Below, one piece after another: positions 40,298 to 42,806 of a stretch of DNA of 64,000 bases. Within the stretch, counting starts at the first letter, position 1, and each line of letters opens with the position of its first letter. The notes beneath the pieces are model-generated. The model made no database searches. It was not told the DNA's origin and was given only the letters and a program-made list of their open reading frames with translations. The translations under genes and the position numbers were made by a program. This DNA is from Verrucomicrobiaceae bacterium (GTDB lineage Bacteria > Verrucomicrobiota > Verrucomicrobiia > Verrucomicrobiales > Verrucomicrobiaceae), in contig CANGYJ010000003.1 in the NCBI GenBank assembly GCA_947458455.1, positions 186,001 to 250,000 of the forward strand, in the 5' to 3' direction.

Positions 40298-40329
40298 GTG
40301 GTTCAGGGGTAGGAAGAAGGGCCTACGAA

Positions 40330-40735
40330 ATGCCTCGAAAGGGCAGGGGAGAGGTGTGCCATGGTCGCGTGGTGGTGAATGGCAGACGCAATGCCACCGT
40401 GCTCAGCCGCATCTTTGACTGGCGCACAAACACCTGGAGCGCCCTGCCCAACATGCAGGATGCGCGTTGGTGCAGCACCAGCTTGGCCCTGCCGAACGGC
40501 CAGGTCTTCACCGCCGTGGGCACCGGTGGCAGCAACACCTCCGAGCGCTGATCGAAGGCACCGGCTGGCAGCGCTGCACGAACATGAACTGGACCGTGGC
40601 GTATGGTGACAACACCTTTGAATCCATCTGGCATCCTTTGCTGCACCCCGCGCCGAGCGGAAAATCTTCCACAGCGGTCCCACCAACAACAAGAACTGGG
40701 TGGATCAGACCAGCCTCAGCGGCCTCACCCACGCA
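40330..40735 (+). pseudogene. Galactose oxidase/Kelch-like gene remnant
   Basis: The stretch encodes IFDWRTNTWSALPNMQDARW, then, after a one-base frameshift near 40550 (expected SERWIEG), GWQRCTNMNWTVAYGDNTFES, and after another near 40661 KIFHSGPTNNKNWVD. Together this is the propeller core of a galactose oxidase or glyoxal oxidase-like protein. Start and end are missing. It overlaps the 3' end of the FolK-PanB gene on the other strand. Confidence 0.7.
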
Positions 40736-41975
40736 CCTCGCTCACATACTCTCCCACCGCCCGCAGCGTCTCAGCCGCGACATCCGCTCTCGCTTTGGCA
40801 AAGGGCGGACGGAACCAAGGAAAGGAGCCGAGGAGATCCGGGGTGACGAGCACCTGACCATCGGTGCCACTTCCGGCGCCGATGCCGATGGTGCTGGCTT
40901 TCACGGCGGCGGTGATTTGGGTGGCGACCTCCGGCACGATGCTTTCGAGGACCATGGCGCAGGCTCCGGCCTCATCGAGAGCTTTGGCATCGGCGAGTAG
41001 CCCGGCGATTTGATCGGCTGTTTTGCCCTTCTTTTTGTAGCCGCCCTCTTCTTTGACGCTTTGCGGCAGCATGCCGATGTGGCCGACGAAGGGGATGCCA
41101 GCGTCGATGATGGCTTTGACCTCCGGCAGATGAGCCACACCACCTTCGAGCTTCACGGCGGCGGCTCCGCAGGCCATTAGGCGTCGCGCATTGGCGAGCG
41201 CCTCCGCCGGCGTGCGGTAGCTGGCAAAGGGTAAATCGGCGATCACGGGCGTGCGTTGGACGCCTCGGCACACGGCGGCGGTGTGCAGCACCATCATGTC
41301 CATCGTGACGCCGGTGGTATCCGGCAGCCCATGCACGACCATACCGAGGGAATCGCCCACGAGGATCAAATCAAGCCCCGCCTCGTCGAGCAGGCGGGCG
41401 GTGGGATAATCGTAGGCAGTGAGGACGGCGATCTTTTGACCGAGCTGCTTCCGCTCGCGGAGTTCGGCGAGGTTTGAGAGAGGTGGGAGGAAGGTTTTCA
41501 CGGCAGTGGGATCGTCGTCGAGATCAGCGAGCAGCTCGGCGATGGTCTTGGATGGATTGGGAAGGCGCAGGCCGGGGTTCAAATCGGCTAGCGGTTGGAG
41601 CACAAAGCGGCGCTGGGGCAGTCGCGGATGCGGGATGGTGAGCGCTTCATCGTCGATGACGAGGGGCCCGGCGTGCAGGATGTCGAGGTCCAGCGTGCGC
41701 GGGGAATTCCGCTCATGCACGGGTGGACGGCCGAGGGTGGTCTCGATGGCCTTGAGCTTCGCGTGGAGATCGTGCGGCAGGAGGTCCGTCTCCAACTCGA
41801 TGGCGGTGTTTAAAAAAGCCTGCGTGCCGGGGGCGCAATCGACGGGCGCGGTTTCATAGATCGGCGCGGTGCGGATCGTGGCACCGGACACACTTTCGCG
41901 GATCAGCGTGAGGCCGCGGCGGAGGTTCTCCGCACGGTCACCGAGGTTCGAGCCGAGGGCGATGCCATAGATCAT
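40725..41975 (-). CDS. FolK-PanB fusion (HPPK and ketopantoate hydroxymethyltransferase)
   Basis: A 416-residue two-domain protein. Residues 1-155 are 6-hydroxymethyl-7,8-dihydropterin pyrophosphokinase: ALGSNLGDRAENL, RTAPIYETAPVDCAPGTQAFLN and RNSPRTLDLDILH. Residues about 165-416 are ketopantoate hydroxymethyltransferase: IAVLTAYDYPTARLLDEAG, LVGDSLGMVVHG, AVKLEGGVAH and VGHIGMLPQSV. Both active sites appear complete, with a short linker near DDDPTAVKTFLPPLS. FolK makes folate precursor, and PanB uses methylene-tetrahydrofolate, so the fusion joins connected pathways. Confidence 0.9.
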   Translation of the reverse strand: MIYGIALGSNLGDRAENLRRGLTLIRESVSGATIRTAPIYETAPVDCAPGTQAFLNTAIELETDLLPHDLHAKLKAIETTLGRPPVHERNSPRTLDLDILHAGPLVIDDEALTIPHPRLPQRRFVLQPLADLNPGLRLPNPSKTIAELLADLDDDPTAVKTFLPPLSNLAELRERKQLGQKIAVLTAYDYPTARLLDEAGLDLILVGDSLGMVVHGLPDTTGVTMDMMVLHTAAVCRGVQRTPVIADLPFASYRTPAEALANARRLMACGAAAVKLEGGVAHLPEVKAIIDAGIPFVGHIGMLPQSVKEEGGYKKKGKTADQIAGLLADAKALDEAGACAMVLESIVPEVATQITAAVKASTIGIGAGSGTDGQVLVTPDLLGSFPWFRPPFAKARADVAAETLRAVGEYVSEVRG

Positions 41976-42002: not shown

Positions 42003-42806
42003 TCACAGAAAGGGAAGCGCCCAGCCCAGCATATCTGAAGCCACTCCCCACCAGCAGTGCGCCACCTCGCCGAGCCCGAGAGCGGGCGAGGGCGACGCGG
42101 CAAGCAGCATGAACATGAGGACGCCCGTGTTGAAAAGGAAAATGAGCATCATCGAGAAGAACTCGCCGTTCTTCGTCAGATCGCCCTGCTCCAGACGGAT
42201 CGTTTTGGCGGTGTAGGTGGCGTGAAAGCACCACGTAAGCCCCACGAGGTAATAAAACACCAGCGCCGGGACGATGCTCAGTCGCCACACCTTGATCGGC
42301 TCATGCATTTCGAGGAAGAGCCCAGCCACGCCGAAGAGCACCAGCAAGATCGTGGTATAAAAGGGCAGCAGGTAAGGGGCGAGCGTGATCCAGGTGTTCG
42401 ACTTGTTCGTCTCCACATAGCCGCCCGAGGCACTGGCCTTCCAATCGAAGATCTCCCCGCCGAACAGCCGGGCCGTGACGAGGTGACTCATCTCATGCCC
42501 AAACACATACGCCGTCACGGGTCGCACGTTCAGGTGCCACATGGCCCCCCAGCTCGCCCCGCCGACAGCGAACCAGATGAACTCCCGGCTGCGCCAGAAT
42601 TCCATGTCCTTGCAGGCCCGCCAAAGCATGACCATCAGCGTCGCTGCTGTCACTAGGGCCAGCGGGAAGAGCAGGAAGGCTCCGATGACCTGTTTGGAGA
42701 CATAACGCCACCATTTCGCCTGGGCATCGGCACGGTTGTTGATGCCGATGGGCCGGGTGGTGGCCTCGTGCTGAAAGCGGCGGGTATTCTTTTTCGACAT
42801 CGCCAT
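42003..42806 (-). CDS. Membrane protein with HExxH motif, M50-like
   Basis: A 267-residue protein with about six membrane segments. The metal-binding motif FGHEMSHLVTARLFGGEIF lies in a helix near residue 110, followed by SASGGYVETN, which resembles the H-E-x-x-H and later GG elements of site-2 (M50) proteases. The second motif (NxxPxxxxDG) is not seen, so it is an atypical or inactive relative. It is divergent from the hydrolase at 42878 across a palindrome-rich spacer. Confidence 0.7.
   Translation of the reverse strand: MAMSKKNTRRFQHEATTRPIGINNRADAQAKWWRYVSKQVIGAFLLFPLALVTAATLMVMLWRACKDMEFWRSREFIWFAVGGASWGAMWHLNVRPVTAYVFGHEMSHLVTARLFGGEIFDWKASASGGYVETNKSNTWITLAPYLLPFYTTILLVLFGVAGLFLEMHEPIKVWRLSIVPALVFYYLVGLTWCFHATYTAKTIRLEQGDLTKNGEFFSMMLIFLFNTGVLMFMLLAASPSPALGLGEVAHCWWGVASDMLGWALPFL

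Follow-up and report, generated by a model that had tools for sequence, protein, structure and literature searches.

PanB, a folate-using enzyme of the pantothenate pathway, consumes methylene-THF, the distant precursor of which is made by FolK. Genes for the two enzymes cluster in many genomes (Thiaville et al. 2016, PMC4814558), and that study reports that overexpressing PanB in E. coli caused pterin to accumulate and raised folate by 46%. Its authors inferred that PanB damages methylene-THF by cleaving it and that the resulting pterin is recycled by FolK. The locus described here likewise links these two enzymes in the genome; the difference is that the genes are separate there and fused here, and the words "fusion" and "fused" do not occur in the main text of that paper. 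Other fusions of HPPK, the FolK domain, have been described. In the HPPK-DHPS enzymes (PDB 4pzv, 8sl9, 3mcm, 7mpy and 2bmb), an N-terminal HPPK also shares one chain with a second enzyme, but that partner is the next enzyme of folate synthesis rather than a folate user from the pantothenate pathway. A FolB-FolK fusion (PDB 2cg8) joins HPPK, there C-terminal, to the preceding folate enzyme, and such a fusion is mentioned for Bifidobacterium longum in PMC1971073. HPPK fusions to DHPS and FolB and folK-panB clustering were therefore known already, and a FolK-PanB fusion is apparently new within the scope searched: no bifunctional FolK-PanB model is among the Pfam or NCBIfam matches of the protein, and no paper on such a fusion is among the matches listed in the open-access literature.

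The window, that is, the whole stretch of 64,000 nucleotides analysed here from a Verrucomicrobiaceae genome, contains one gene in which the two enzymes are joined, with the following parts.

40725 to 41975, minus strand: folK-panB fusion gene, one frame of 416 codons (416 amino acids) with an ATG start and a TGA stop
41574 to 41963, minus strand: HPPK (FolK) domain, residues 5-134, from Pfam match and catalytic residue check
41472 to 41525, minus strand: variable linker, residues 151-168 (limits of our choosing), with low model confidence and Pro165
40731 to 41471, minus strand: PanB domain, residues 169-415, from Pfam match and catalytic residue check

A preliminary description had read this gene as a single frame encoding complete HPPK and PanB domains, and this is borne out, with HPPK complete (positions 2-116 of 116 in Pfam HPPK, PF01288; E 3.7e-33) and PanB near-complete (positions 4-252 of 259 in Pantoate_transf, PF02548; E 2.2e-93). 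Both matches lie above cut-off, as do those to the NCBIfam equivalogs TIGR01498 (folK) and TIGR00222 (panB), which supports the identity of the gene as a FolK-PanB fusion. Judged from its sequence, the gene probably encodes a bifunctional enzyme that arose when folK and panB, lying next to each other, were joined in frame.

Numbered after E. coli FolK and PanB from NC_000913, FolK positions R82, R92, D95, D97, H115, R121 and F123 and PanB positions D45, D84, E114 and E181 are conserved in all ten fused proteins found. We take R82, D95, D97, H115 and R121 to be catalytic residues of FolK, D45, D84 and E114 to be metal ligands of PanB, and E181 to be a catalytic residue of PanB. PMC4814558 names R92 and F123 of FolK as critical. 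Elsewhere the fused proteins depart from E. coli: all ten have Phe in place of FolK Y53 and do not conserve R84, and five of the ten have Ala or Gly in place of PanB Y25. A model of the fusion as a monomer, built from ten fused sequences, had a mean pLDDT of 81 and a pTM of 0.59, a value at which the mutual placement of the two domains is unreliable; two stretches, residues 159-162 of the linker and residues 381-397, had a confidence under 50. PanB assembles as a decamer. The model matched a solved HPPK chain (4m5j) with a TM by target of 0.92 and an rmsd of 1.6 and a solved PanB chain (3vav) with a TM by target of 0.86 and an rmsd of about 4. Fold and checked active-site residues are thus like those of stand-alone PanB (PDB 1m3u and 3vav), which differs in having no HPPK domain.

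One way to obtain such a gene is by error, through a frameshift or an assembly join, which the preliminary description had considered at about codon 160. All nine other fused loci bear MAG titles in their records, a point in favour of an artefact, but three further genomes from the genus have the same fused frame at 83-92% identity, in separate assemblies that differ at synonymous sites while the protein is conserved. The dN/dS ratios of six pairs (0.07-0.14 for FolK and 0.045-0.078 for PanB, with synonymous sites near saturation for the more distant pairs) indicate that both domains are under purifying selection. Together with the conserved catalytic residues, this argues strongly against a frameshift or join, no sign of which was seen, and we regard an artefact as extremely improbable.

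The preliminary description had also allowed for separate intact copies of both genes. In the window's own genome (G000), which is 96% complete, the one HPPK match lies inside the fusion, and no second HPPK domain, hence no separate folK, was found. There are two PanB-family matches, the second being a paralogue on another contig.

1429 to 2283 of locus L002 (G000 contig C4), minus strand: PanB-family paralogue of 284 amino acids, above the Pfam cut-off with 122.6 bits

With 91.7 bits, this paralogue falls short of the NCBIfam panB cut-off (207.55), and since a gap or a serine also takes the place of Asp45, Asp84 and Glu114, it is not an intact panB copy. Given a single HPPK match and a PanB paralogue that is not intact, the genome very probably has no FolK and no working PanB other than the fusion. 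The paralogue adjoins an open reading frame that looks sialidase-like by eye. Genes for PanC, FolP and FolB sit on other contigs, and two DHPS (folP) matches above cut-off occur in this one genome (G000:C5:365719-366489 and G000:C17:23106-23879).

All ten fused genomes have a single HPPK match, always within the fusion. A second PanB-family match occurs in nine of the ten (residues were examined in the G000 paralogue only), and G043, an assembly with 8% contamination, has a third piece covering PanB positions 2-63 on another contig, which could belong to another PanB. These additional matches, along with the several residues of the active-site region that are unlike E. coli, are what would be cited for the view that one half of the fusion is inactive or a mere scaffold, its activity having been taken over by another gene. 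We consider this very unlikely given that the checked catalytic residues are conserved in all ten proteins, that no fused genome has an HPPK match outside the fusion, and that the paralogue of G000, the one examined, lacks three metal-ligand positions.

How widely the fusion occurs in Verrucomicrobia, which the preliminary description stated to be unknown, can now be given for a sample of the order Verrucomicrobiales: in 10 of 386 genomes the match spans almost the whole length without a stop, at an E limit of 1e-90 that may hide divergent fusions, and in 37 of the 386 a match of such extent is interrupted by one in-frame stop. Within this sample, G481 shares contig and positions with the genome of L143. 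Two of 387 genomes in a sample of the phylum are fused, the window's own included (E limit 1e-60), and none of 19 further phylum loci chosen mostly for long open frames is; adjacent but separate folK-panB pairs are found in other families of the phylum. Among 48 genomes of the genus, in some of which short contigs could mask linkage, four are fused, one (G045) has adjacent genes with a stop, 40 have separate genes (39 on different contigs and one with the genes 31 kb apart), two have FolK only and one has neither. G045 appears fused from its open frame; a TGA between folK and panB rules this out. Physical association of folK and panB thus takes the form of fusion in the window and adjacency in many relatives and is absent from 40 of the 48 genus genomes, which implies that coupling is dispensable. 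Two loci titled Akkermansia muciniphila (L151 and L154) have a PanB identical to that of genomes of the window's genus, and their titles look wrong; the genus also includes Brevifollis gellanilyticus (L149).

A scan of genome_contigs with two peptide patterns, from which the best 80 of 108 loci were retained, gave 9 fused loci, 26 with both genes on the same strand and 45 with panB only in the fetched flanks; patterns and selection of this kind make the scan no test of other phyla. Eight of 25 close folK-panB pairs at these loci are in frame and 17 are out, close to the one third that chance predicts; a single change can therefore be enough to join the two genes. In-frame neighbours show no excess of a kind that might hint at stop readthrough between folK and panB. 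In a plasmid collection, 686 records match and 10 cover at least 80% of the query, four of these with separate panB and folK features and six lacking annotation.

The fusion arose more than once. In a tree of concatenated FolK and PanB from 65 genomes (four long-branch rows removed), the fused label requires four changes. Starred branches force every one of them, and 0 of 200 bootstrap trees make do with a single change. Each single-gene tree also gives four changes, with starred branches forcing three for PanB and two for FolK, and in both trees the four genus fusions form one clade beside G016, whose genes are apart. A single origin of all ten fused proteins is rejected with a p-AU of 1e-98, in a test that presumes a group named beforehand, whereas a single origin is not rejected for the genus group with G056 (p-AU 0.10) or for G086 with the G070 group (p-AU 0.15). 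These sequence comparisons show at least two origins, and four are most likely.

The neighbours of the fusion differ between the genus and its relatives. In all four fused genus genomes, the following gene or its relative lies upstream of the fusion.

42003 to 42806, minus strand: gene 27 bases before the fusion start, with no Pfam or NCBIfam match

Its GHEMSH motif is reminiscent of membrane metalloproteases. A dapB-type gene (identified in G063) is instead found upstream of folK in the three adjacent-pair relatives examined (G045, G057 and G063) and upstream of four unlinked folK loci, in G008, G016, G023 and G042, and in G056 a dapB-type gene is followed by the fusion itself. The gene order dapB-folK-panB thus probably dates far back in the family, and within the genus folK and panB seem to have relocated together, as the fused gene. 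The unlinked loci L207, L211, L213 and L216 retain the upstream dapB-type gene; downstream of unlinked folK, G008 and G023 have neighbours in common that are not those of G016 and G042, so folK and panB may have become separated repeatedly within the genus. In the window, positions 40298-40724, between the fusion and a gene for a sulfite-reductase-like flavoprotein, look by eye like what is left of a larger protein, now broken (NTWSALPNMQDARW...).

The junction bears on whether a free PanB could still be made. The preliminary description had claimed a frame with no internal start, and to the letter this fails, as an in-frame GTG stands at codon 159 inside a FolK-type DPTAVK segment. In the window's genome no Shine-Dalgarno-like string precedes that GTG, and the site of the ATG in separate PanBs of the same genus, counted back from a shared RK motif, is proline codon 165. 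Free PanB from an internal start is thus unsupported in G000. No ATG occurs in the junction region of the genus group or G056. Of the four members of the G070 group, G070 alone has one, as late as codon 182, and G086 retains one at codon 166, preceded by a Shine-Dalgarno-like string. Every fusion still has GTG or TTG codons at its junction, some of them with such strings (GTG159 in G014, GTG170 in G070 and GTG179 in G095), and internal starts are therefore possible in other fused genomes. Among the genus fusions, the 18-residue linker varies more than the two domains, giving no hint of a channel between FolK and PanB.

As a bifunctional enzyme, the protein would pyrophosphorylate 6-hydroxymethyl-dihydropterin in folate synthesis through its N-terminal HPPK domain and would transfer the one-carbon unit of methylene-THF to ketoisovalerate through its C-terminal PanB domain. 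The preliminary description had tied the halves together by the need of PanB for methylene-THF, a link that is sound but incomplete, the published one, as set out in PMC4814558, being damage by PanB and recycling by FolK. FolK placed beside PanB might then reclaim hydroxymethylpterin that PanB may release on cleaving methylene-THF. The same study expects the product of PanB damage to be a tetrahydro form, as opposed to the dihydro form that is the normal substrate of FolK, and calls an in vitro test of damage and recycling difficult. Absent a benefit from recycling, the sole gain would be fixed co-expression.

Why the fusion was kept can be answered in two ways. The stop of folK could have been lost by drift more than once and tolerated, leaving two independent enzymes with a 1:1 ratio as the only effect. 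Adjacent pairs are common, single changes suffice for the 8 of 25 that are in frame, most of the genus manages with the two genes apart and the linker is variable, all of which favour neutrality. It may have more difficulty with the repeated origin, at least twice and probably four times in a single order, and with the missing ATG where PanB would start in the genus group, in G056 and in three of the four members of the G070 group, although GTG and TTG persist there, some with Shine-Dalgarno-like strings. We put neutral fusion at slightly below an even chance. That the fusion was instead kept because FolK recycles the pterin released by PanB is possible but doubtful. Somewhat bolder is the proposal that the fusion forms a physical damage-and-repair unit in which pterin is recaptured on the same chain, which would explain both the repeated origin and the loss of the PanB ATG in most fused lineages; we think this rather unlikely.

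That two genes are fused is usually considered better evidence that they work together than that they are neighbours, and the link between FolK and PanB has so far been inferred from clustering and from PanB overexpression (PMC4814558). A natural FolK-PanB fusion fits a prediction of the damage and recycling idea, and its repeated occurrence strengthens that idea rather than proving it. Fusions of at least two origins, together with relatives in which the genes are adjacent or separate, supply fused and split forms alike, in which damage to folate by PanB and its repair by FolK may be tested.
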